Shown here: in pieces, positions 11,475 to 22,201 of the stretch
Layout of the letters: every line of letters starts with the position of its first letter
Position numbering within the stretch: the stretch's first letter is position 1
NCBI GenBank assembly: GCA_945862235.1
Contig: CAMAYU010000057.1
Coordinates: 1 to 32,634 of the forward strand
Length of the DNA: 32,634 nucleotides
Reading direction: 5' to 3'
Source: Schlesneria paludicola DSM 18645
GTDB taxonomy: Bacteria > Planctomycetota > Planctomycetia > Planctomycetales > Planctomycetaceae
Made by a program: the position numbers and the translations under genes
Notes under the pieces: model-generated
Told to the model about the DNA's origin: nothing
The model's database searches: none
Seen by the model: the letters and a program-made list of their open reading frames with translations, nothing else

Positions 11475-11686
11475 CGTGAATCGTCTTCCATCTGAATCTG
11501 AGGTTCATGCGGCCCGGTTCGGCCTGTAGGTCGAGGAATGAGGGGTCAGAAGATAGCAAGCGAACCCTGCTCCGCAAAGCCAACGCCGTCAAATGTTCTT
11601 TTCTGCCGCCGCCTCCGCTAGAGTGGGCCGCACTGAAACGACTTTTATAGGCTTGGTTCAAGTCGAGGTAATAGCCAAGCAGAAGG

Positions 11687-11729
11687 CCCCTCACCCTAAC
11701 CCTCTCCCCGCAAAGCCGGGGCGAGGGGA
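11687..11729 (+). repeat. CCCCTCACCC hairpin, copy 1 (upstream of dus)
   Basis: C-rich left arm CCCCTCACCCTAACCCTCTC, loop GCAAAG, and G-rich right arm CGGGGCGAGGGG. The end is 43 nt before the dus start at 11773. Related copies are at 13137, 16010 and 21597, all in this orientation. Confidence 0.75.
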
Positions 11730-11772
11730 CAAGAGCAGGCAACTGATACCCAAGGCCGCACCCATTTGAACC

Positions 11773-12909
11773 ATGCCCTTTTATGGACTGCGAACTCTTC
11801 CCCACATGCCCGTTCTTTCTGAATCGTCTCCCACCGTCCGCGATCGACTCCTGAGCCTGCCTCCGCTCCTTTACGGCGGATTGAAGCTGGAGTCGCGGTA
11901 TCTGCTTTCGCCGTTGGCCGGGTACACGAATCTGCCGTTTCGCCGGATCGTGCGTGAGTTGGGCGGGGTTGGATTGGCGACGACTGATTTGGTGAACGCA
12001 CGCGGGTTGCTCGACCGCAGTCCGAAGACGCTGCAACTGATCGAGACCTGCCTGGCGGATCGTCCCTTCGCGGTGCAAATCTTTGGCGGCGATCCCGTCA
12101 TCATGCGCGATGCGGCTCAGTTGCTGGAGGCACGCGGCGTCGATTCGATCGACATCAACATGGGCTGTCCGGTCAGTCGCATCACGAAGGTGGGAGCCGG
12201 TGCGAGCCTGATGTGCCAGGCCGATCGCACGATTGATCTCGCGCGGGCCGTGGTCGAATCGGTCAAGATTCCGGTCACCGTGAAGATGCGACTCGGCTGG
12301 GACAGCACGCAACTGACGGCCCCGGCGTTCGCGCGTGAGTTCGAACAAGTCGGCGTGGCGGCCGTTGCCATTCATGGTCGCACGCGCGAGCAGGGCTTCA
12401 GCGGGGTGGTCGATCGGACGGGAATCCGCAAGGTGGTCGAGGCGGTCGAGCGGATTCCGATTATCGGCAACGGCGACATCCGCACGGTCGAAGAGGGCGA
12501 GCGGATGTTCGCGGAAACCGGGTGCCATGCGATCTCGATGGGACGCGGTGCGTTGGCTAATCCGTGGCTGTTCCGGCAGTTCGTCGAGTGGGAGGCGACG
12601 GGTGAGTACTCGCCCGCAGGGACATTCGATGATCGCCTTGTGCTGCTTAAACGTCAGTTCGAGTACGCCGTCGAGCAGCGCGGGATCGAGCGGGCGATCA
12701 CGTCGTTCCGTAAGATGGCCCATTGGTATTTGAAAGCGATGTGTGTCTCCGCCAGCTTGAGAAACCAACTGCAAGAGGCGCGGACTCGATTGGAATTTGA
12801 TACGGCTCTCGACGACATCGCCTCGCAGGGACCGACACGCGGCTCGCGTTCGGGACTGCTCCCGAGTCTGCACATCTCTGTTCCGGCCGGCCCCAATGCG
12901 AACTGGTGA
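11773..12909 (+). CDS. dus: tRNA-dihydrouridine synthase (Dus family)
   Basis: An FMN-dependent enzyme that reduces uridines in the tRNA D-loop. The 378-residue frame shows the TIM-barrel opening LLSPLAGYTNLPFRRIVREL (about 44-63), FAVQIFGGDPVIM (about 99-111), the active-site block DINMGCPVSRITKVGAGASL with catalytic C132, TVKMRLGWD, the HGRTREQGFSG motif and IPIIGNGDI, followed by GRGALANPWLF. All are diagnostic of the DusB-like branch, though the exact position specificity cannot be read from sequence. The start is uncertain: neither the ATG at 11773 nor that at 11806 has a clear Shine-Dalgarno, and the first 30 residues are extra relative to most Dus proteins. The C-terminal 25 residues (Ser/Gly/Pro-rich) are also beyond the family core. 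A C/G-rich hairpin lies in its presumed leader. Confidence 0.93.
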   Translation: MPFYGLRTLPHMPVLSESSPTVRDRLLSLPPLLYGGLKLESRYLLSPLAGYTNLPFRRIVRELGGVGLATTDLVNARGLLDRSPKTLQLIETCLADRPFAVQIFGGDPVIMRDAAQLLEARGVDSIDINMGCPVSRITKVGAGASLMCQADRTIDLARAVVESVKIPVTVKMRLGWDSTQLTAPAFAREFEQVGVAAVAIHGRTREQGFSGVVDRTGIRKVVEAVERIPIIGNGDIRTVEEGERMFAETGCHAISMGRGALANPWLFRQFVEWEATGEYSPAGTFDDRLVLLKRQFEYAVEQRGIERAITSFRKMAHWYLKAMCVSASLRNQLQEARTRLEFDTALDDIASQGPTRGSRSGLLPSLHISVPAGPNANW

Positions 12910-12931
12910 TCAGCCGCACGTGGGAGAAGCT

Positions 12932-12998
12932 GACACTAACCCGAAGCGTAAGCGAGGAGGCAACACCAGTCCTCGCTTACGCTTCCGGTTAGTGTGAA
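12932..12998. repeat. CACTAACCC-GAAGCGTAAGCGAGG inverted repeat
   Basis: Two arms of about 25 bp (12934-12958 and 12970-12995) are nearly perfectly complementary, with an 11-nt loop. They lie 25 nt after the dus stop. Related sequences are at 15434-15497 (both arms) and 27007-27035 (one arm). Confidence 0.8.
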
Positions 12999-13136
12999 AT
13001 GTGCCATCCGCACTCGTCAGCGGTATAAGCCGGGGTCCGGTGATTCAAAATTCAGTTTTCGCCGCGAAAAGTGAACTTTGAACCACCGGACTCCGGATCG
13101 TCTGAGTTTTCGAGGTTGGTATTGTCGATCGAAGAA

Positions 13137-13181
13137 CCCCTCACCCCGGCCCCTCTCCCCCGTAAAGCCGGGGCGAGGGGT
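13137..13181 (+). repeat. CCCCTCACCC hairpin, copy 2 (upstream of fhcB)
   Basis: CCCCTCACCCCGGCCCCTCT, loop around GTAAAG, and right arm CCGGGGCGAGGGG. It ends 27 nt before the fhcB ATG, with no other obvious ribosome binding site in between. Confidence 0.75.
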
Positions 13182-13207
13182 GAAATCTTGAAACAGCAGT
13201 TCCACCT

Positions 13208-14518
13208 ATGACCACGAACAGACTCAACACGGCAACGGCTGATACGGGCGCGGATCGTGTCATTGAAGACGTGGCGTGTACGGTCTGCGCGTGTGTGTGC
13301 GACGATTTGAAGATCACCGTGCGCGGCAATCGCATCGTCAAGGCGGAACGGGCGTGCGGGTTGGCTGAGCCGTGGCTGCTCGGTCAGAACGCGATCGAGG
13401 TTCCCGAGGCGACGGTTCGGGGGCGCGAGATTTCGTGGAACGAAGGCGCGCGCGCGGCGGCCGACATCTTGCGTGACGCACGCGCGCCGCTGATCTATGG
13501 CTTGTCGCGCAGCAGTACGGAGGGACAGCGTGCGGCGGTCGCCTTGGCCGATCGACTGGGGGCGACGATTGATTCGACCGCATCGGAAGGGCACGCGCCG
13601 TCGATTCTCGCCATGCAGGAGTCGGGTGAATCGACCTGCTCGCTCGGTGAAATTCGTAACCGTGCGGACCTCGTCATTTACTGGGGTTCCGATCCGGTCG
13701 AGTCGCATCCGCGGCACATGGAGCGGTACTCGATGGAGCCGACCGGGCTGCACATTCCGCGCGGTCGAGCCGACCGGACATTGATCGTCGTGGATACGAA
13801 ACGCACTGCCACTGCGGAACTCGCCGACTGGTTCCTGCCGATCGAAGAGGGTCGCGATCTGGACGCCTTTTGGACACTGCGCGGCCTCTTGCGTGGGATC
13901 GAACCGGCACCGAACTCACATACGGGACTGCCACTTGACGATCTGAGACTACTGGCGGAACGAATGAAGTCGTGTCGGTGCGGAGTCATCTTTTTCGGAT
14001 ACGGTGTCGCCCGCTTGCCGCTCGGAAATCGGAACGTCGAAGCGCTACTGAGACTGGTCATCGACCTCAACCTGTTCACGCGGTTCCATGCACGGCGGAT
14101 GCGCGTCATGGGTGATGTGACCGGTGCCGACAGCGTGCTCTGCTGGCAGACTGGTTACCCATTCAGCGTCAACCTGGCGCGAGGCTATCCGCGCTACAAT
14201 CCCGGTGAGTTCTCAGCGGGCGATCTGCTGACTCGGCGCGAGGCGGATGCCGTGGTGTTGATTGGCTCGGCTCGCGTCTCAACCTTTTCGCCCGCCGCGT
14301 TGGAGCATCTGCGATCGGTCCCCACGATCCTGCTCGATCACGCGCAAGCAGACTGCCCCATCGAACCGACGGTCCGGATCACGACGGCGGTGTATGGCGT
14401 TCACTGTCATGGCACGGCCTACCGCATGGATGAAGTTCCGATCCCGCTGCGTCCGGTCCTCACGTCGAATGCTCCGACCGACGGCGACGTGCTGCGGGCG
14501 GTGGATGGCTGGTTGTGA
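13208..14518 (+). CDS. fhcB: Formylmethanofuran dehydrogenase subunit B homologue (FhcB)
   Basis: This 436-residue protein is homologous to archaeal FwdB/FmdB. In bacteria with tetrahydromethanopterin-linked C1 metabolism, FhcB belongs to the formyltransferase/hydrolase complex that releases formate from formyl groups. The N-terminus holds the iron-sulfur-type cysteines C24, C27, C31 (plus C29) and C50 in ACTVCACVCDDL and ERACGLAEPWL. The segment CSLGEIRNRADLVIYWGSDP with ESHPRHMERYS is diagnostic. Where archaeal FwdB has CHGPS with the metal-ligating (seleno)cysteine, this protein reads EGHAPS (127-132), with Gly in the Cys position; this fits a non-redox bacterial FhcB. No fhcA, fhcC or fhcD is in the window, so the complex genes are scattered. 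A C/G-rich hairpin sits just upstream of the ATG, and no canonical Shine-Dalgarno is seen. Confidence 0.88.
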   Translation: MTTNRLNTATADTGADRVIEDVACTVCACVCDDLKITVRGNRIVKAERACGLAEPWLLGQNAIEVPEATVRGREISWNEGARAAADILRDARAPLIYGLSRSSTEGQRAAVALADRLGATIDSTASEGHAPSILAMQESGESTCSLGEIRNRADLVIYWGSDPVESHPRHMERYSMEPTGLHIPRGRADRTLIVVDTKRTATAELADWFLPIEEGRDLDAFWTLRGLLRGIEPAPNSHTGLPLDDLRLLAERMKSCRCGVIFFGYGVARLPLGNRNVEALLRLVIDLNLFTRFHARRMRVMGDVTGADSVLCWQTGYPFSVNLARGYPRYNPGEFSAGDLLTRREADAVVLIGSARVSTFSPAALEHLRSVPTILLDHAQADCPIEPTVRITTAVYGVHCHGTAYRMDEVPIPLRPVLTSNAPTDGDVLRAVDGWL

Positions 14519-14559
14519 GGGAGACGGACGCTGTGTGGGAGTTCCTCGACCGCATCCGC

Positions 14560-14613
14560 AGGGCCATCAGCTTGTTGGGTCTGCACACCCTACGTAACAA
14601 TGGCGATGGCCTT
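14560..14613. repeat. MITE-like palindromic element, core-deleted copy
   Basis: AGGGCCATCAGCTTGTTGGG on the left and AACAATGGCGATGGCCTT on the right match the terminal repeats of the elements at 9916-10080 and 15615-15768, but the internal palindromic core is missing. It lies between the fhcB stop and the convergent flgG-like stop. Confidence 0.6.
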
Positions 14614-14619
14614 GCCGCG

Positions 14620-15372
14620 TCAGCGGATGGTGTCGAGCGCTGAAGAGATCAGTTGATCGGACGCGCGGACCACTCGCGAGTTGACTCCGTACGCGCGTTG
14701 AGCCGCAATGAGAGTCGTCAGTTCCGTCGTGACATCGACGTTGGACTGTTCCAAGGCGCGTTGCCTCACCACACCAGCGGCATTGGTTCCGGGAACCGCC
14801 GTGATGGGCAATCCGGAAGCGTCGGTCTCGCTGTAGCGGTTGTTTGCCTCGGTGCGCAGACCCGCCGGATTGGTGAAGCGTGTCACGGTGACCTGACCGA
14901 GGATCACCGGCGTCGTGGGCGAAGAGCCGGTCAGAACGGAGACCACTCCGGTGTCATCAATCGTCGTGGCAATCGTGTCCAACGGAAACGTGATCGGCGG
15001 TTGGAGAATCGATCCGTCGTCCGTCACCATTCGGCCAGTCGAATCGCGACGAAAGGTCCCATCGCGCGTGTACTGCGTCGTGCCGTCAATGGCTTTCACG
15101 GCGAAGAACCCTTTGCTTTCGATGAGCAGGTCCAAGTCCTTGCCGGTCAGGACTGAGGGACCTTGATTGAAGTCGCGGAGCGAAATGTCGGAGACCCGCA
15201 CCCCGCGTCCGACTTGAAGATTGCTCGGACCGTCATAGATCAGGTCTTGAAAATCGACGACGCTCCGTTTGAACGAGGTCGTGTTGACGTTGGCCAAGTT
15301 ATTGGCCGACGCATCGAGCTTCGTCTGGAAGGCATCGAGTGCCGTCGCGGCGGTGTACATCCCGGGCAGCAT
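14620..15372 (-). CDS. FlgG-like flagellar rod/hook protein, second paralogue
   Basis: A 250-residue protein of the FlgE/F/G family. The N-terminal rod motif is SANNLANVNTTSFKR, followed by VDFQDLIYDGP. The middle has VGRGVRVSDISLRDFNQGP and LLIESKGFFAVK; TQYTRDGTFRRDSTGRMVT matches the FlgG core; and the C-terminus LEQSNVDVTTELTTLIAAQR with AYGVNSRVVRASDQLIS is the classical terminal helix. It clearly resembles the FlgG encoded at 16781-17569, with which it shares block order and the QPPI-x-FP/IP segment, but it is shorter and on the opposite strand. Structurally it could replace or extend part of the rod. Transcription runs away from flgF, with about 700 bp of repeat-rich DNA between them. 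The ATG at 15372 has only a weak, distant AAGG. Confidence 0.88.
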   Translation of the reverse strand: MLPGMYTAATALDAFQTKLDASANNLANVNTTSFKRSVVDFQDLIYDGPSNLQVGRGVRVSDISLRDFNQGPSVLTGKDLDLLIESKGFFAVKAIDGTTQYTRDGTFRRDSTGRMVTDDGSILQPPITFPLDTIATTIDDTGVVSVLTGSSPTTPVILGQVTVTRFTNPAGLRTEANNRYSETDASGLPITAVPGTNAAGVVRQRALEQSNVDVTTELTTLIAAQRAYGVNSRVVRASDQLISSALDTIR

Positions 15373-15433
15373 CGCGTGGTCTCAGTGAGTTGCCTTGGAG
15401 TGAGAGCGGAAACTGTTTGAGAAGGCTGGCCAA

Positions 15434-15497
15434 TACCAACCCGCAGCGTGAGCGAGGGCCGGAAGCCAAGCCGACTCGCTCACGCTGCGGGTTGGTG
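15434..15497. repeat. CCAACCCGCAGCGTGAGCGAG inverted repeat
   Basis: Arms at 15434-15456 and 15475-15497 are almost perfectly complementary, with an 18-nt loop. It is the same family as 12932-12998. It lies in the 5' region of the flgG-like gene. Confidence 0.8.
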
Positions 15498-15614
15498 TGG
15501 CGGTCGTATTGATAAGGTCGAACAGGCGGGACATCCGCCATGATGTGCGAGCCGTTGCCGTCACACGCCGTTCACAACAGGCACGCCAATCACAACTGAT
15601 ACGGCTTCGCGCGC

Positions 15615-15768
15615 AGGGCCATCGCTTTTTTCAACGTACGGTGGGACCAGCTCGCTTCGAGCGCCGGCCCACCATTGGCAAGCATCGAGAAATCATGGTG
15701 AGCCGGCGCGGCGAAACGCCGCTGGTTCCACCCTACAGGTTACGCAGACCCAACAAGGCGATGACCCT
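15615..15768. repeat. MITE-like palindromic element, long copy 2
   Basis: This 154-bp copy has terminal inverted repeats AGGGCCATCGCTTTTTTCAA and CCCAACAAGGCGATGACCCT. Inside it shares 24 identical bases with copy 1 (starting ACCAGCTCGCTTCGAGCGCC) and the CGAGAAATCATGGTG core segment, followed by the complementary right arm. Confidence 0.75.
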
Positions 15769-16009
15769 GCTTCGCGCGGGTGCGAGCCTCGATTCGCTGA
15801 CATTTCTCGTCGCGAAGTGCCGTCCAATCCACGTCGCTGCGGACACCGCGACCCGCAAGCTTGGGAAGTTGGATAAAGACGGCATGGCCCGCGCAGTGCG
15901 AGTAATCGTCCTGTCCGTCAGAGTCCGATGGTAGAGAGACGAGACTTTGTGTGAGGTCTCGAAACCAACTTCGGCGACAACTGCCGTTGGGAGCGCGGGT
16001 AGCCAAGAA
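15769..16009. other. Intergenic region between element copy 2 and the flgF leader
   Basis: Overlapping frames exist on both strands here but none has a convincing start, ribosome binding site or protein character. I see no recognisable sigma-28 or sigma-54 promoter for the flagellar genes, although the main flagellar promoter is expected hereabouts. Confidence 0.4.
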
Positions 16010-16052
16010 CCCCTCACCCCCGACCCCTCTCCCAACAAAGCTGGGGCGAGGG
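16010..16052 (+). repeat. CCCCTCACCC hairpin, copy 3 (upstream of flgF)
   Basis: CCCCTCACCCCCGACCCCTC, loop ACAAAG, right arm CTGGGGCGAGGG. It ends 22 nt before the flgF GTG start, and AGGAA lies between the hairpin and the start. Confidence 0.75.
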
Positions 16053-16074
16053 AAGAAAATGACAGGAACACGCG

Positions 16075-16773
16075 GTGATTCGAGGGCTGTACAGCGCTGC
16101 GGGCGGAATGCAGGCGACATCGCTTCAACAGGATGTCACCGCGCAGAACCTCAACCACGCCGTGAAGCCCGGCTATCAGCGCGAGGTCTTGCGGTTCCAA
16201 GCCAGTGGGCCGATGGAGGCACTTCAGGGGCCGGAGACTTCACTACACACCGACTTCAGTCCGGGGACTCTCGAACACACCGGCAGCTTTTTGGACGTGG
16301 CTCTGGATGGGCCGGGCTTCTTCTCGATTGATGGTCCGAGCGGCCCGCTGTATTCGCGGTGCGGTACGTTTGCACTCAACGGTGCCGGGCAGATCGTCAC
16401 ACAAGAAGGTCGCACTGTGCGCGGGACTGGGGGACCGATTGAGATCCCGCCCGGGACTTCGCAGATCGAGATTCTCGACGATGGCACGGTCGTCGCCGAC
16501 GGGGCGGAACTAGATCAGCTTAGCGTCGTGGCCTTTCAGAATCCGCACGAACTGCGGCGCGTCGGCACGACCTACTTCGAGGCTCCTCCGAACGCGGCTC
16601 GCGACACCACGGGGCCGAACGTCCGGCAGGGTTATCGCGAGCAAGGAAACACGACGATCGTCCACGAGATGGTGCAGATGATCTCGGGACTCAGGCAGTT
16701 TGAAGCAACGCAGCGTGCGTTGCGGTCACTCGGCGACGCCATCGGTTTGAACACGCGACCGCTCAATAGGTGA
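16075..16773 (+). CDS. flgF: Flagellar basal-body rod protein FlgF
   Basis: A 232-residue proximal rod protein of the flagellar basal body. It starts with GTG (AGGAA about 9 nt upstream), giving MIRGLYSAAGGMQATSLQQD, the usual FlgF/FlgG N-terminus. The following motif is unusual: AQNLNHAVKPGYQREVLRF in place of the common NNLANxxTxGYKR. The middle contains DVALDGPGFFSIDG and LYSRCGTFALNGAGQIVT, and the C-terminus (NTTIVHEMVQMISGLRQFEA) is the conserved terminal helix. It opens a tight series: the flgG start follows its stop by 8 nt. FlgF and FlgG both belong to this family; I call this one FlgF from its shorter length, the weaker N-terminal motif and its position before the canonical flgG. 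Confidence 0.88.
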   Translation: MIRGLYSAAGGMQATSLQQDVTAQNLNHAVKPGYQREVLRFQASGPMEALQGPETSLHTDFSPGTLEHTGSFLDVALDGPGFFSIDGPSGPLYSRCGTFALNGAGQIVTQEGRTVRGTGGPIEIPPGTSQIEILDDGTVVADGAELDQLSVVAFQNPHELRRVGTTYFEAPPNAARDTTGPNVRQGYREQGNTTIVHEMVQMISGLRQFEATQRALRSLGDAIGLNTRPLNR

Positions 16774-16780
16774 CACGATC

Positions 16781-17569
16781 ATGATGAAAGCCTTGTTCAC
16801 AAGCGCGACTGGAATGCAGGCCCATTCGACGGTCGTCGATACGACGGCGAACAATCTCGCCAACGTCGACACCACCGGCTTCAAGCGCAGTCAGGTCGAG
16901 TTCCAAGACCTGATGTATCAGACCGTCCGCGCTCCCGGTACGCAGGGGGCGAATGGCCTCGAAGTCCCGACGGGGATTCAAATCGGTAGCGGTGTTCGCA
17001 CTTCGGGGATTTCCAAAATTTTCTCGCCGGGTGCGTTTGAAAATACGAGCAACCCGAACGACGTTTCGATTCAGGGGCAGGGCTTCTTCCAAGTGGCAAT
17101 GCCCAACGGCGACTTCCGCTATACGCGTGACGGTTCGTTCCGTCAGAACTCAGCCGGACAGTTGGTGACGGCTGATGGCTTTCTGTTGCAGCCGCCCATC
17201 TCCATCCCCAGCGACGCCCAAGAGGTGACGATCGGTACGGACGGCACGGTCTCCGTGGTCACCGCTTCGACTCCAACAGCGACACCCGTGGGGAACCTTT
17301 CGTTGACGCGATTCCCCAATCCCGGTGGTCTCTCGTCCGAGGGACGCAACCTCTTTGCCGAGACATCCGCATCGGGGGCCGCAGCACAAGGGACACCCGG
17401 TGAGAACGGCCTCGGCACGTTGCAGCAGGGATTTTTGGAGCGATCCAACGTGCAGGTCGTGACCGAACTGATCCGGCTGATCACGGCACAACGCGCGTTT
17501 GAAGCGAGTCAGCGAGCCGTTTTGACGAGTGACCAGATGCTTCAAACCACCAACGCGATGGTGAGGTAA
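16781..17569 (+). CDS. flgG: Flagellar distal rod protein FlgG
   Basis: At 262 residues this is the standard FlgG length. The N-terminus MMKALFTSATGMQAHSTVVD is followed by TTANNLANVDTTGFKRSQVE, the canonical rod motif, and FQDLMYQTVR. The FlgG-specific region lies between about residues 45 and 75 (GLEVPTGIQIGSGVRTSGIS), then FQVAMPNGDFRYTRDGSFRQ, and the C-terminus LERSNVQVVTELIRLITAQR with AFEASQRAVLTSDQMLQ. FlgG forms the straight distal rod that passes through the P- and L-rings. The ATG at 16781 comes 8 nt after the flgF stop, with AGG in the flgF tail, so translation is likely coupled. The flgG-like gene at 14620-15372 is a divergent relative. Confidence 0.96.
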   Translation: MMKALFTSATGMQAHSTVVDTTANNLANVDTTGFKRSQVEFQDLMYQTVRAPGTQGANGLEVPTGIQIGSGVRTSGISKIFSPGAFENTSNPNDVSIQGQGFFQVAMPNGDFRYTRDGSFRQNSAGQLVTADGFLLQPPISIPSDAQEVTIGTDGTVSVVTASTPTATPVGNLSLTRFPNPGGLSSEGRNLFAETSASGAAAQGTPGENGLGTLQQGFLERSNVQVVTELIRLITAQRAFEASQRAVLTSDQMLQTTNAMVR

Positions 17570-17576
17570 CGCCGCT

Positions 17577-18704
17577 ATGCAAGTCTCTCGCGATCACTTC
17601 GTTCGTCTCTTGATTGCCTCCACGTTCTGCGTCGTGGGGCGAGACGGCGTTGTCGTGGCCGGTCCGCCGGTGCCTGTTGTTGCGAGTGCAAAGAGTTCGT
17701 CGCCATTGGTTCTCGCGTTGCGGTCGCGCGTGCAAGTTGCTGGTCGTGAAGTTCTCATCGGCGACGTGGCTGCGGTGTCGGGCGGCAATGCGGAGCAACG
17801 TAAGCGAGTTGAGGAACTCGATCTGAACGATGCGCTCGCCACGGGTGAGTCGATCGAGATCGCGCCGCCTCAGATTGAATTTCGGTTGAGGCTAGCAGGC
17901 GTCGATCCGGACGATGTTTCGATTCGCGGTACGGCGGTTCGAGTCACAGCAGGCCGCGCGGTCTCGTCGCCGGGGCGAGTCACTGGGGTTCGCGAAGCGT
18001 CAGCCCAAACTCTCTCGCAACCCGTGCGTTCAAATGACGTGGCATCCACACTGGAACAACTCGTCGTTCAAGCGGCTGAGGACTGTGTGCGAGGCAAACT
18101 GCCGTGGTCGGCTGACGATGTGACGGTTCGCCTTGCCGTGCCGCTGCCGCACGAGGTGACTCAGGCAGTTGCGGCCTCGGGCTACGTCTGCCGGGCGTCG
18201 TTGCGAACAAATGGGCCAGCGGTCGGTCGCATTCAAGTTCAAGTCGTGGCGGGAGCTACCGGCAAACGGTCCTTCGATGTCGCCGTCCATCTCGATGTGC
18301 GGCATTTCGATGGAGTGGTCTTGGCCGCGAAAGCACTCGAACGAGGACACACGATTCAAACGTCCGACGTTTACGTCGATCGGCAAGACGTGACGACGCT
18401 GAGTGACTATTGCTCGAACGCGGACCTGCTGGTCGGTGCGACGGTCAAACGATCCGTTCGCCCCCTCATGCCCGTCAAATTGAGCGACGCGGAGTCGAGT
18501 CGTTCGACCGCCAACGCGGTGCTCGTCAAGCGGCGTGATCGAGTCCGCATGGTGGCCAAGATCGGCTCGCACAGCATCAGCACGACTGGCGAAGCGCAGC
18601 AGGAAGGTCGCTTGGGAGACACGATCCGGCTGCAAAACATCGAATCCAAAACGTTCGTTCAAGGTCGCGTGACCGCCGCGAACGAAGTCGAGATCACGTA
18701 TTGA
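17577..18704 (+). CDS. flgA: Flagellar P-ring assembly chaperone FlgA
   Basis: FlgA is a periplasmic chaperone that helps FlgI polymerise into the P-ring. The 375-residue protein is longer than the enterobacterial one (about 220) because of a longer N-terminal half. It starts with a signal-peptide-like segment (VRLLIASTFCVV in the first 20 residues). The C-terminal half has the FlgA/SAF pattern: VVLAAKALERGHTIQTSDVY, a DRQDVTTLSDYC segment, LLVGATVKRSVRPLMPVKLS, then VRMVAKIGSHSISTTGEAQQ and the closing GRLGDTIRLQNIESKTFVQG. It starts 7 nt after the flgG stop and is followed at 12 nt by flgH, so it belongs to the flgFGAH run. N-terminal residues 50-120 could be a second beta-rich domain not found in E. 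coli FlgA. Confidence 0.9.
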   Translation: MQVSRDHFVRLLIASTFCVVGRDGVVVAGPPVPVVASAKSSSPLVLALRSRVQVAGREVLIGDVAAVSGGNAEQRKRVEELDLNDALATGESIEIAPPQIEFRLRLAGVDPDDVSIRGTAVRVTAGRAVSSPGRVTGVREASAQTLSQPVRSNDVASTLEQLVVQAAEDCVRGKLPWSADDVTVRLAVPLPHEVTQAVAASGYVCRASLRTNGPAVGRIQVQVVAGATGKRSFDVAVHLDVRHFDGVVLAAKALERGHTIQTSDVYVDRQDVTTLSDYCSNADLLVGATVKRSVRPLMPVKLSDAESSRSTANAVLVKRRDRVRMVAKIGSHSISTTGEAQQEGRLGDTIRLQNIESKTFVQGRVTAANEVEITY

Positions 18705-18716
18705 AGGGAAATCGCG

Positions 18717-19343
18717 ATGACACGGCGAGAATGGGTGCAAGCGTGGTTGTTCGGGGCGATCCTCACGCCCACTCTGACTGCCCGCGCGGATTCGATCTGG
18801 GAACGCCGCGAGCAGCGCAGCGCGTTCCTGTTCGTCGATAATCGGGCGCGGCGGGTTGGTGATCTGCTGACAGTCACCGTGAAAGAATCAACCGGCGCGA
18901 AGAACAATGAGGAACGGACGCTCGATAAGGGAACATCGGCGGCCGGAAAGATGGACTTCTCAGGGAAGACGGGTTCGGACGGCGCGAGTCGCTCTGCAAC
19001 GGCGGCCGTTAGCGCGAAACAAAGTTCGGATCGCTCCTTCCAAGGAAGCGCGGGCTACGAAAGCGATCGCCTGCTCGTGGATCAGATGACCGTCACCGTG
19101 ACCGATGTTCTGCCGAACGGCAATCTGGTGATCGAAGGTTATCGGAAGCGAGTCGTCTCGAACGAAACGCGGCTGCTCCGTGTGACAGGCATCGTGCGGC
19201 CGAACGACATCGAAGGCCCCAACGTGATCGAGTCCAAATACATCGCGAACTTCAACCTCGTGTATGAGGGAGCAGGCGTGGAGACGCGGTTCACCAATCA
19301 AGGTTGGCTCGGCCGGACCACGAACCGCATCTGGCCGCACTGA
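18717..19343 (+). CDS. flgH: Flagellar L-ring protein FlgH
   Basis: FlgH forms the outer-membrane L-ring bushing. The 208-residue protein has SIWERREQRSAFLFVDNRAR at about 26-45, then VGDLLTVTVKESTGAKNNEE, the Ser/Gly/Ala-rich centre, the LLVDQMTVTVTDVLPNGNLV region, VIEGYRKRVVSNETRLLRVT, and GIVRPNDIEGPNVIESKYIA, all diagnostic. The N-terminal hydrophobic segment (WLFGAILTPTLTARA) looks like a Sec signal cleaved after ARA. There is no lipobox and no cysteine anywhere in the protein, whereas the enterobacterial FlgH is a lipoprotein; anchoring must differ. It starts 12 nt after flgA and is separated from flgI by a hairpin. Confidence 0.93.
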   Translation: MTRREWVQAWLFGAILTPTLTARADSIWERREQRSAFLFVDNRARRVGDLLTVTVKESTGAKNNEERTLDKGTSAAGKMDFSGKTGSDGASRSATAAVSAKQSSDRSFQGSAGYESDRLLVDQMTVTVTDVLPNGNLVIEGYRKRVVSNETRLLRVTGIVRPNDIEGPNVIESKYIANFNLVYEGAGVETRFTNQGWLGRTTNRIWPH

Positions 19344-19374
19344 GTCGAAAGAGGGTTGTCGGGAGCGTGGAGTT

Positions 19375-19472
19375 TTCCAAGTAGTCGTCATCGCTCCGCG
19401 TGACGAGTCTTTCACAATCGGACGACTGAACTCACGAGGCTCATCACGCGGAGCGATGATGGCTACTTGGAA
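19375..19472. repeat. TTCCAAGTAGTCGTCATCGC inverted repeat between flgH and flgI
   Basis: Arms at 19375-19407 and 19440-19472 are complementary over about 33 bp with a few mismatches; the loop is about 32 nt. The right arm ends directly at the flgI Shine-Dalgarno (AGAGGAA, about 19472-19478). In RNA the hairpin would separate the flgH and flgI messages and might shield or expose the flgI site. Confidence 0.8.
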
Positions 19473-19485
19473 GAGGAACTGAGTG

Positions 19486-20703
19486 ATGGCGGTCTGCATT
19501 CGATCTCTCTCGCTGCGTCGGAAGTGTCTGTGCTTGAGCCTGCTGGCTCTGCACGGACTCGTCCTGTTTGGCAACGCCGCATCGTGTCGGGCGGAAGTAC
19601 GGATCAAGGACATCACGGAAGTCGAAGGTGCTCGCAGCAATCAACTCTATGGAGCGGGTCTCGTTGTCGGGTTGAACGGAACGGGGGCGAGAACGCTCTC
19701 CACGCAACAAATGGCCATCGACATGCTCCGCAAGATGGATGTCACGTCCAAATTGGCGCGGCAGTCACTCCTCGACAATGTTTTCAAATCGACGAGCATT
19801 TCCACGGTGATGGTGACGACCGAGATTCCGCCGTTCGCACGCAAGGGGAGCCGGTTGGATGTCGTGGTTTCGGTCATTGATGACGCGATCAGTCTGGAAG
19901 GGGGCACGCTGCTGCTGAGTCCACTCAAGGGAGTTGACGGCGAGGTCTACGCGGTCGCCCAAGGGCAGTTGACGATCGGCGGCGTGCGGGTTCGCAGCAC
20001 AGGGACTGGTGGCCAGCAGAACCATCCGACGGTGGCCCGCTTGCAGGGGGGGACGATCGTCGAACGGGAGGCGCTCGGAAAGATCGACCAGGGCGGAATG
20101 GTGCGGCTGCTGCTGCGGGAAGCCGATTACTCAACGGCCAAGTCCATCGTGGAAGCGATCAATCAGAAGTATCCCTCGACAGCGCTGGCCGTCGATGAGG
20201 GGACGATTCAGATTCGAGTCCCGCTGACTTGGTCGCGTAATCTGCCCGACTTTGTCAGTGAGATCGGACGACTCAAGGTGACCCCCGACACCATCGCCCG
20301 CGTCGTCATCAACGAACGCACGGGAACGGTGATCGTCGGCCATCAAGTCCGCATCTCCTCGGTCGCCATCGCGCATGGAAATCTCGTCATCAAGCCGAAC
20401 GTGACACTCCCGCCGTCGCCCGGCGCGGAGGGCTTGTCGCCGTTCCCCGGCGCACCGCCTGCGTTCGGTGAGCGCTCGGGCGATGATGTCGATGACATTT
20501 TGGAGGCACTCAAACCCCGCGACTTGTCACGACCACCACAGCCCACGTCGCCGGTGTCGATTCACAATTTCGATCAGACTTTTACGGTGGCCGAACTTGC
20601 CCGCGTGCTGAACGCGCTGGGAGTCTCGCCCCGCGATTTGATCGCCATTTTTCAGGCATTGAAGGAGTCGGGAGCCATGCACGCGGAGCTGGTGGTCATG
20701 TAG
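19486..20703 (+). CDS. flgI: Flagellar P-ring protein FlgI
   Basis: FlgI forms the peptidoglycan-level P-ring. The ATG at 19486 is preferred over the GTG three bases earlier; AGAGGAA lies about 8 nt upstream. The 405-residue product starts with a signal peptide (LRRKCLCLSLLALHGLVLFG in the first 30 residues) and then VRIKDITEVEGARSNQLYGA with GLVVGLNGTGA, the canonical mature N-terminus. It continues with MAIDMLRKMDV, NVFKSTSISTVMVTTEIPPF, VDVVVSVIDD-like and IARVVINERTGTVIVGHQVR. It is about 40 residues longer than usual because of a Pro/Ser/Asp-rich insertion near residues 305-365. The end, FTVAELARVLNALGVSPRDL with IAIFQALKESGAMHAELVVM, is the standard FlgI C-terminus. Inverted repeats flank the gene on both sides. 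Confidence 0.95.
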   Translation: MAVCIRSLSLRRKCLCLSLLALHGLVLFGNAASCRAEVRIKDITEVEGARSNQLYGAGLVVGLNGTGARTLSTQQMAIDMLRKMDVTSKLARQSLLDNVFKSTSISTVMVTTEIPPFARKGSRLDVVVSVIDDAISLEGGTLLLSPLKGVDGEVYAVAQGQLTIGGVRVRSTGTGGQQNHPTVARLQGGTIVEREALGKIDQGGMVRLLLREADYSTAKSIVEAINQKYPSTALAVDEGTIQIRVPLTWSRNLPDFVSEIGRLKVTPDTIARVVINERTGTVIVGHQVRISSVAIAHGNLVIKPNVTLPPSPGAEGLSPFPGAPPAFGERSGDDVDDILEALKPRDLSRPPQPTSPVSIHNFDQTFTVAELARVLNALGVSPRDLIAIFQALKESGAMHAELVVM

Positions 20704-20739
20704 TAGTGAGGCGAATACGAGGAGCGACATCAGGTGCAA

Positions 20740-20822
20740 CCCCGGATTTCACGGAGAACACGGAGAAGGCAGATCAGGATTCGTGGTCTGTGTCTCATCT
20801 GTGTCCTCCGTGAAATCCGGGG
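20740..20822. repeat. CCCCGGATTTCACGGA inverted repeat
   Basis: CCCCGGATTTCACGGA (20740-20755) pairs perfectly with 20807-20822. Inside, ACACGGAGAAGGCAGAT and ATCTGTGTCCTCCG-like sequence extend the stem imperfectly. It lies between flgI and flgJ, the first of two palindromes there. Confidence 0.8.
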
Positions 20823-20871
20823 TCAGGATTGTTCGTGTCGGGGCATCGTGAGTGGCAAGAGCTGGTTGACC

Positions 20872-20945
20872 CGTAGGATGGACGCCTCGTCCGTCCGAGT
20901 CGCAGCCGTTCGTGACGGACGGACGGACGAGGCGTCCATCCTACG
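20872..20945. repeat. CGTAGGATGGACGCCTCGTC perfect inverted repeat
   Basis: Two 26-bp arms (20872-20897 and 20920-20945) are exactly complementary, with a 22-nt loop. It is the second palindrome between flgI and flgJ. A weaker related inverted repeat, also starting CGTAGGA, is at 29074-29160. Confidence 0.85.
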
Positions 20946-20999
20946 AGTTCGCGATGTTTGTGAGATTTGATTCGGACCGAACTGATTGAGGAGTTGGCC

Positions 21000-21368
21000 A
21001 TGTCGGCGATCAGTAGTTCCGTGATGTCGGGTTCGTTGCCGATGACCTCGGTGGCCGAACGAGGTCAGATGTCGTCAATGAACGGGAATGCGATGTTGAA
21101 GGCGGGTGGCTCGACAACACCGGATTCGACGGATCAGAACGCGCGCGTGGCGAAAGACTTCGAGGGGGTATTCGCCTCGCTGTTGCTCAAGGAAATGCGG
21201 AAGACGTTGGAGCCGGGGACACTGTTTGGCGAGGACTCGGGAGACGTGTATGGCGGCATGTTCGACTTGTACCTTGGCCAGCAGATGACACAGTCGGGTG
21301 GATTCGGTTTGGCGAAGATGATTCGCGAGTCGTTGGACCCAAAACAGAAGGTGAACACGGCAGGGTAG
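21000..21368 (+). CDS. flgJ: FlgJ-type rod-binding protein without muramidase domain
   Basis: The 122-residue product contains only the rod-binding (rod cap) half of FlgJ: VAKDFEGVFASLLLKEMRKT, LFGEDSGDVYGGMFDLYLGQ and QMTQSGGFGLAKMIRES match the family. In enterobacteria FlgJ has a C-terminal peptidoglycan hydrolase domain of about 150 residues; here the frame ends straight after the rod-binding part, so another enzyme must cut the peptidoglycan. The ATG at 21000 is chosen for the strong GAGGAG about 7 nt upstream; the frame opens 11 codons earlier at a TTG. The N-terminal 40 residues are Ser/Met-rich and probably disordered. It is separated from flgI and from flgN by palindromic DNA. Confidence 0.87.
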   Translation: MSAISSSVMSGSLPMTSVAERGQMSSMNGNAMLKAGGSTTPDSTDQNARVAKDFEGVFASLLLKEMRKTLEPGTLFGEDSGDVYGGMFDLYLGQQMTQSGGFGLAKMIRESLDPKQKVNTAG

Positions 21369-21373
21369 GCACT

Positions 21374-21524
21374 GTTTTGAAACTCGCCCCACCGGGCTGG
21401 TCCCGATGGAATCAGGTTTTGCACTACTCGATGACTGCCGGATATTGAACTCGATGACTGCCGGATATTGAAGTAGTGCAAAAACCTGAAAACCACCCAG
21501 GCAAGCGGGGTGGGGTTTCAAAAC
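21374..21524. repeat. Large nested palindrome downstream of flgJ
   Basis: Outer arms GTTTTGAAACTCGCCCCACC (21374 onward) and the complementary TGGGGTTTCAAAAC-type end (to 21524) flank an inner stem, TCAGGTTTTGCACTACT at 21412-21428 with AGTAGTGCAAAAACCTGA at 21472-21489. The loop is made largely of a tandem 23-bp repeat. Confidence 0.8.
21426..21471. repeat. Tandem 23-bp duplication in the palindrome loop
   Basis: Two perfect adjacent copies of a 23-bp unit (starting ACTCGATGACTGCCGGATAT) at 21426-21448 and 21449-21471. It sits at the apex of the 21374-21524 palindrome, where replication slippage is likely. Confidence 0.9.
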
Positions 21525-21596
21525 ACAACCGAGTGCAAACGATTTGTGGAACACTCGATTCATTGCAGAGCAAGCCAAGTGTGATTGAAGAGGAAG

Positions 21597-21627
21597 CCCC
21601 CCTCTCCCGCTGAGCCGGAGCGAGGGG
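21597..21627 (+). repeat. CCCC-CTCTCCC hairpin, copy 4 (upstream of flgN)
   Basis: A shorter member of the family at 11687, 13137 and 16010: CCCCCCTCTCCC, loop GCTGAG, CCGGAGCGAGGGG. It ends 34 nt before the flgN ATG and has the same orientation. Confidence 0.65.
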
Positions 21628-21661: not shown

Positions 21662-22201
21662 ATGAATGCCGTCCCCTCATCACTGATGGAACCGCCGCAC
21701 CTAGACGGTCCGGTGGCAGAGCTGTTGCTGTCGCATCTGAGTGCGGAAGAGTCGTCACTCGCAGCCATGCTGCACGCGGTGCAAAACGTTCACAACGCGC
21801 TGCGTCATTTGAATGACGATCAGTTGCGTGAAGCCTTAGAAGAAGAGTCGCTCGCGATTGCCGGCGCCAGCGAATTGCAGCAGCAACGCTGGGACTTGCG
21901 AGTTGCATTGGCTGCGGCGCTGGGGGTCGAGCGAGACGAAGCCACATTGGGGCGCGTCCTGACGGTGGCCACGGGGGCCTTGCGGGAGGGGGTCGCGCGA
22001 TTCCGAAAGTCATTGGCCGAGATGTCCACTGAGTTGGAGCGGCTCAACCGGCAGAACGGGGCCATGATTCGGCAGTCGTTGTCACTAACGCGAGGCATCA
22101 TTGGCCGACTGACGGGGCAGCGGACGGCGGGTGACACGTACAACGCGGAGGGCAACCGCGACGAGGTCCATGTGGGATCTCTGGTTCAGTGGGGTGGCTG
22201 A
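21662..22201 (+). CDS. flgN: FlgN-like chaperone for hook-filament junction proteins
   Basis: A 179-residue, largely helical protein. Helices include VAELLLSHLSAEESSLAAML, a long central coil around QQQRWDLRVALAAALGVER and the segment GVARFRKSLAEMSTELERLN with RQNGAMIRQSLSLTRGII, similar to FlgN-family coiled-coil chaperones that escort FlgK and FlgL to the export gate. Sequence similarity within this family is low, so the call rests on length, helical character and position: it ends 2 nt before the flgK ATG, the usual flgN-flgK arrangement. The C-terminal 30 residues beyond the helices look unstructured. Confidence 0.78.
   Translation: MNAVPSSLMEPPHLDGPVAELLLSHLSAEESSLAAMLHAVQNVHNALRHLNDDQLREALEEESLAIAGASELQQQRWDLRVALAAALGVERDEATLGRVLTVATGALREGVARFRKSLAEMSTELERLNRQNGAMIRQSLSLTRGIIGRLTGQRTAGDTYNAEGNRDEVHVGSLVQWGG

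Follow-up and report, generated by a model that had tools for sequence, protein, structure and literature searches.

Why should four C/G-rich hairpins, all in one orientation, stand immediately upstream of plus-strand genes in a single stretch of DNA? In this study, we address that question for contig CAMAYU010000057.1 of Schlesneria paludicola DSM 18645 (positions 1 to 32,634, forward strand; contig C57), where the hairpins precede dus, fhcB, flgF and flgN, the last named by position. The window, by which we mean this whole 32,634-nucleotide (nt) stretch, belongs to a 6.83 Mb genome draft in 377 contigs, labelled G000 in the copy-number comparisons; among named genomes, those nearest to it by fhcB are mostly of Schlesneria. 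All four hairpins belong to the BoxC/PIT/TM family, a class II G/C-rich intrastrand triplex motif (TM) known from E. coli; three are complete and the fourth is a degenerate half copy. The explanation that we favor, at a probability of roughly 0.7, is that BoxC is a selfish, mobile palindrome that multiplied in a recent burst in this lineage, inserts almost indiscriminately, is kept where it is harmless, and is purged from leaders where it lies antisense.

Hairpins of the window as BoxC/PIT/TM repeats

A sequence-only reading of the window had placed the hairpins at 11687-11729, 13137-13181, 16010-16052 and 21597-21627 and had supposed that their sequence class might already be known; all four were found there, on the plus strand, and the class is indeed BoxC/PIT/TM. 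In nhmmer searches, copy 1, of type A (CCCTAACCC), extends over 11687..11728 (E 3.7e-15), and copy 2, which is type B-like (CCCCGGCCCC), over 13137..13180 (E 9.8e-9), with the fhcB ATG (13208) 27 nt further on. Copy 3 (16010..16052, E 5.3e-10) stands 22 nt before the flgF GTG at 16075, and copy 4 (21597..21627), a weak member of the family (E = 0.013), 34 nt before the ATG at 21662, which opens the reading frame called flgN by position and for which NCBIfam gave no match. The G arm proposed from the letters, GGGGCGAGGGG, is exact in copies 1 and 2, but reads GGGGCGAGGGA in copy 3 and GGAGCGAGGGG in copy 4. Moreover, copies 1-3 carry two tandem C-rich arms (CCCCTCACCC and CCCTCTCCC-like), which had not been told apart, followed by a single G arm with which either C arm can pair, and a three-part stem is possible in each of them. 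Copies 1-3 thus show two C arms and then a G arm (C, G, G when read on the opposite strand), an order not kept in copy 4, which has the second C arm but lacks the first. The strict core has two matches in the window versus none in 100 shuffles, and Rfam at its gathering thresholds reports only a tRNA there.

The assignment to BoxC rests on the arms and their order. In the available text of Holder et al. (2015; PMC4666352), TM_ECO type A mm of E. coli, earlier known as BoxC or PIT, corresponds to the reverse complement of CCCCTCACCCTAACCCTCTCCCC-loop-GGGGCGAGGG; both CCCCTCACCCTAACCCTCTCCCC and GGGGCGAGGG are common to copy 1 and the copies of E. coli MG1655, and copy 2 resembles TM_ECO type B. 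Likeness extends to types A (TTA) and B (CCG) in the second loop and to the occurrence of inverted pairs. The conserved core is about 54 nt long with sharp ends and reads AAGAA-CCCCTCACCC..CCCTCTCCCC-GCAAAGCC-GGGGCGAGGGG-ACAAGA. Its loop before the G arm, GCAAAGCC, differs from that of E. coli in being about 8 nt long instead of about 3 nt. This exceeds the 1-6 nt allowed by the ITxF search program, a limit of that program; Hoyne et al. permitted 0-10 nt, according to the same available text (PMC4666352). In a variant of the loop, mostly met inside open reading frames (ORFs), the core encloses a further small palindrome (GACCACCGAAGCGGCGGTGCCC), as at L069:6499-6567, L078:7965-8030, L059:318-385 and other places.

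Multiplication in one lineage and the unit around copy 1

The element is far more numerous in this genome than in its congeners. A strict pattern, CCTCTCCC-N4-14-GGGGCGAGGG, recovers 132 copies genome-wide (64 forward, 68 reverse), and the reversed pattern, our control, recovers none. With a wider pattern we counted 133 copies in G000, 21 in G014 and 4 in G002, while the other 12 congeners gave none; of the 99 genomes searched, this one included, 24 hold any copy. The loop subfamily NCARRGNN amounts to 107 copies in G000 and is absent from the other 391 of 392 phylum genomes drawn, while G014 and G098, both outside that draw, hold a few. The four window copies follow suit: no copy was found in the surroundings of dus in 13 congeners, of flgF in 7, or between flgN and flgK in 7, and no hairpin at fhcB in any of the five congeners (of 13) in which dus and fhcB are adjacent. 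In these five, the dus and fhcB matches lie 10-23 nt apart, versus about 300 nt in the window. Across 75 fhcB loci a single element was seen (L183), about 3 kb downstream of fhcB. The dus-fhcB gap of the window also holds two further palindromes, at 12934-12999 (ACACTAACCCGAAGCGTAAGCGAGGA...) and about 13036-13101 (CCGGTGATTCAAAATTCA...), so that the fhcB leader looks like a stack of three palindromes; sequence from this stretch recurs next to BoxC copies at L050 and L044.

The genomic context of the copies was studied in a sample of 80 genome stretches (64 picked for listed copies, 16 as background), which together with the window comprises 1.44 Mb and covers 100 of the 132 strict copies, the remaining 32 lying outside it. 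A profile built from the strict copies gave 145 nhmmer matches, and we used the 140 with E <=0.02, dropping the five with higher E. Genes were called with a hexamer-based caller of our own (933 genes, 78 percent coding). Close neighbors stand in inverted arrangement in 22 of 26 cases, and 80 of the 140 copies share flank sequence with another copy; judging from the top rows viewed, without a count, we take these to be mainly the partner copies of pairs.

Copy 1 lies within a larger unit of 129 nt (11649..11777, plus strand) that has the marks of a miniature inverted-repeat transposable element (MITE). Its terminal inverted repeats measure about 13 nt (about GGGCATGGTTCAA), and it is bounded by the 7-nt target-site duplication CTTTTAT at 11642..11648 and 11778..11784, read by eye from the flanks. 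The same unit occurs at L075, L048 and L098, making four copies with that of the window; all four show terminal inverted repeats and a perfect 7-nt duplication, each its own (CTTTTAT, GAAAATA, AGAAATT and TCCCATT, by eye). As the MITE profile was built from these four copies, their scores follow by construction, which is not the case for the duplications; six matches run through both MITE flanks, and those at L047 and L082 (E about 2e-5), which are without MITE ends, were set aside. We read BoxC as a non-autonomous insertion element whose multiplication in this genome is recent; it occurs also in inverted pairs and, at least four times, within the 129-nt MITE, and no transposase was identified for its movement.

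The MITE also bears on the start of dus. The reading from the letters alone had every hairpin end 22-43 nt before a start codon, and its distances are right for the codons that it named; its dus ATG at 11773, however, is part of the right inverted repeat of the MITE. In nine of 13 congeners the match starts no earlier than residue 12 of the longer dus ORF, and in four it starts at residues 1-3. The ORF from 11806 matches the DusB profile from residue 24 onward, so a start at 11806 costs nothing of the domain. The ATG at 11806, 77 nt from the hairpin, is therefore the more likely dus start.

Copies in frame inside predicted genes

Most sampled copies do not lie in leaders. Predicted ORFs, 48 in number, contain 85 of the 140 copies (59 sense, 26 antisense) and 55 are intergenic; random positions would place 110.5 ± 4.8 in genes. 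The frame is left open through the inserts, and the encoded peptides, which are presumably translated, are EEPLTLTLSPQSRGEGTR-like or EKTPHPNPLPAKPGRGDK-like for sense copies and LAPALRGEGPGVRGS-like or VPSPRLCGERVRVRGS-like for antisense copies. Five of the 85 lie so near the N-terminus (residues 1-15 of the ORF) that they may be extragenic. A Pfam scan of 47 of the copy-bearing ORFs gave matches at E <=1e-5 for 42, the exceptions being L055:9495, L058:8217, L067:6077, L071:10411 and L039:7488. The 48th, scanned against NCBIfam instead, is UvrA, and the identities of PolA, Mfd and an L-piperidine-6-carboxylate dehydrogenase-like aldehyde dehydrogenase (ALDH) were confirmed in the same way.

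The UvrA ORF alone carries eight copies, arranged as four inverted pairs. At the three of its four sites covered by the alignment, the BoxC peptide is absent from all 13 congeners aligned; at the third site no residues are added in eight of these, four show between one and about eleven unrelated residues and one shows about forty, and the fourth site falls outside the alignment, at a point where the match blocks of the congeners break. In ALDH, PolA and Mfd, the insert peptide is absent from 11 congeners each, at sites that vary in length anyway; at ALDH residues 396-421, 26 in all, the solved relative 6dbb_A has 2. Copies survive in intergenic DNA and, in the genes checked, in length-variable loops or linkers of the protein, the core reading through open. 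The UvrA (L083:11104-18936), PolA (L038:8218-11310) and Mfd (L081:7754-11530) ORFs all bear BoxC inserts, an observation for which no enrichment test was made.

In likely functional genes, then, the insert leaves the frame open and is missing from the orthologs, as seen in the four genes examined. Rickettsia palindromic elements (RPE) are likewise inserted in frame into likely functional proteins, as the available text of Di Nocera et al. (2013; PMC3733652) describes; the present host belongs to another phylum, and the likeness is one of description. The same text places repetitive extragenic palindromic (REP) sequences inside ORFs in a number of species; uvrA is one such gene in Opitutus and in Thioalkalivibrio, and DNA polymerase I is another. 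BoxC shares with these GTAG- and CGTC-tagged REPs the occurrence of short palindromes and their dimers inside ORFs such as uvrA and that of DNA polymerase I, but differs from them in that the foot of its stem carries no GTAG or CGTC tag (the conserved flanks being about AAGAA and ACAAGA) and in that no gene for a REP-associated tyrosine transposase (RAYT; Y1_Tnp) is flanked by the repeat (0 of 6 loci). Unrelated REPs in other phyla thus occupy genes of the same kind as UvrA, Mfd and PolA. Intragenic repeat units are also on record for enterobacteria (Delihas, 2007; PMC2759123, available in part).

This placement differs from that of the same repeat in E. coli, where, in the available text of Holder et al. 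(2015; PMC4666352), TM copies are always intergenic and without strand bias, lie more often upstream than downstream of ORFs and keep no set distance. In MG1655 our pattern recovered 16 of 23 published copies and missed 7; in those 16, none is in a gene and none within 50 nt of a start, two sense and one antisense copies lie within 100 nt of a start, and eight and eight lie within 100 nt of a stop, so that we see no bias there. The literature searched, in which few subscription papers were covered, yielded no report of BoxC inside proteins or in Planctomycetes. The class itself is known; what appears new is its large-scale in-frame intragenic placement and the bias at starts, to which we turn now, neither of which those searches turned up.

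Orientation at gene starts and what may maintain it

Orientation is biased upstream of starts and not after stops. With an intermediate start rule, which gives the four starts named by the sequence-only reading, the ratio of sense to antisense copies is 20:4 up to 50 nt from the start and 31:7 up to 100 nt; best-score starts, which taken alone would be 11806, 13295, 16108 and 21662 for the four window genes, give 14:4 and 21:8, and longest-ORF starts 20:5 and 31:8. The corresponding p values within 100 nt are 0.0001, 0.02 and 0.0003. Within 100 nt of stops there is no bias (17:15, 17:17 and 16:15 under the three start-callings). For a placement null, both the orientation of each intergenic copy and its position inside its own collapsed interval were drawn at random 2000 times, for 53 of the 55 copies, the two at stretch ends being excluded. 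We observe 19 sense copies within 50 nt of a start, where the null gives 9.3 ± 2.6 and 0 of 2000 draws reached 19; antisense copies there number 4 against 9.4. Many gaps between hairpin and start measure 15-46 nt. That all four window hairpins precede starts is consequently a local matter, most sampled copies being intra-ORF, but the sense orientation near starts that was read from them holds throughout the sample, where an absence of bias in orientation or distance would have spoken against it. What had been noticed is a real tendency and not a rule for the placement of the element.

It might be argued that the four-out-of-four pattern is chance, the probability that four copies share an orientation being 1 in 8 by our own arithmetic, and that the wider bias is produced by a gene caller whose starts are uncertain, as dus illustrates. 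We regard this as very unlikely, for the bias holds under all three start rules, and the same gene calls show none at stops. Furthermore, the commonest kind of copy (69 of 140) has two sense frames open and only one antisense frame, so that genes truncated by a copy would favor antisense, not sense. Fusion of copies to N-termini as the cause of the sense bias was rejected as well, since longest-ORF starts alter the counts little.

Stops bring in another proposal of the sequence-only reading, namely that the hairpins terminate upstream transcription. Their G+C-rich stems in intergenic DNA are what intrinsic terminators would have, there is a slight surplus of antisense copies in the first 50 nt after stops here (14 versus 9.4 in the null, P 0.053), and in G021, a genome of another genus of which we analysed 64 of 69 copies from 40 stretches, leaving out five by choice, 30 antisense copies versus 3 sense copies lie within 50 nt after a stop. 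No T tract, however, follows the stem in any of the four copies, and the seven terminator-like sites between 11500 and 22000 (shuffle mean 9.2) coincide with none of them. The gene called upstream of copy 3 runs in the opposite direction, and most sampled copies are inside ORFs, so that termination is highly improbable as an explanation.

G021 has one copy in a gene among the 64, and within 100 nt of starts 7 sense and 0 antisense copies. Most of its copies on contig C1 fall in about 1.05-2.4 Mb (L258-L292), about a quarter of the 5.5 Mb chromosome; many lie just past stop codons with the G arm facing the stop, and in G021 the copy may form the right-hand end of a unit about 200 nt long. In G014, 3 of 21 copies are in predicted genes, with too few near starts and little training data for the gene caller. 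The placement thus varies by host, which argues against one fixed function.

The main rival, which is compatible with the data although we consider it unlikely, is that the start-proximal sense copies are functional 5'-leader elements, stabilizing the 5' end of the mRNA or binding a protein, that arrived as mobile sequences and were retained as helpful. It draws on the doubling of sense copies within 50 nt of starts over the null, on the many gaps of 15-46 nt and on the sense-only copies near starts in G021. However, the four window copies are absent from the congeners checked, the four downstream genes differ in function, and in E. coli the ratio within 100 nt of starts is 2:1, with no copy as near as 50 nt; the available text of Holder et al. 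(2015; PMC4666352) also recounts earlier work that found neither promoter nor terminator activity. A dedicated leader element, as first proposed for these hairpins, is likewise not supported by an element with 85 of 140 copies inside ORFs. It is doubtful, and to our minds decidedly improbable, that BoxC is an active in-frame protein-insertion element whose copies at starts were domesticated, the sense ones being retained since a leader hairpin raises expression. On that same improbable reading, the inserts in proteins of nucleotide-excision repair and in a repair polymerase (UvrA, Mfd, PolA), together with the unrelated REPs in this class in Opitutus and Thioalkalivibrio, would hint at a recurrent link of palindrome bursts with altered repair.

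We therefore return to a mobile palindrome that is filtered by its surroundings. A bias at starts but not at stops suggests removal of antisense copies. Near starts, the C-rich strand would be tolerated in the mRNA, while an antisense copy would put a GGGGAGAGGGTTAGGGTGAGGGG run in the leader, where a stronger hairpin, a purine-motif triplex or a G-quadruplex could form near the ribosome site; the consensus has a predicted fold of -20.3 kcal/mol in sense and -26.6 kcal/mol in antisense. Purging of such leader copies would account for the bias, and insertion itself is probably close to indiscriminate.

Several points weigh against this explanation. The sense excess over the null (19 versus 9.3), which goes beyond an antisense deficit, also fits retention of useful sense copies. 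Antisense copies are not rare in ORFs (26 of 85), and G-rich mRNA is thus not forbidden as such; run with its G-quadruplex option, ViennaRNA did not fold the antisense strand as a quadruplex. If a frame filter were all that acted, the in-gene share would be 0.69-0.78 and the sense share 0.60, where 0.61 and 59 of 85 were observed; as sole explanation such a filter was rejected on the in-gene share. With regard to movement, Y1_Tnp was found at six places in the genome and none of these loci carries the element at E up to 1, which gives mobilization by RAYT no support. Flanking direct repeats in 125 copies (15 of the 140 were excluded because anchors were missing or flanks short) show no general excess (42 around intergenic copies, for a shuffled mean of 33.0, and 86 around copies in genes, for one of 84.5), in which the other copies differ from the MITE around copy 1, and the core may move by a route other than the MITE. 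Finally, the gene calls are our own, the genome is a draft, and the five in-gene copies near the N-terminus of an ORF could be extragenic.

These findings carry a warning for annotation, in that ATGs within repeats, as at dus, and peptides like EEPLTLTLSPQSRGEGTR are derived from the repeat. More broadly, a repeat of unsettled role that is reportedly strictly intergenic and unoriented in E. coli is found here in frame in many predicted proteins and with a clear orientation filter at starts. The same core, placed differently in E. coli, a second planctomycete genus and the present genome, constitutes a natural experiment on where palindromic repeats survive.

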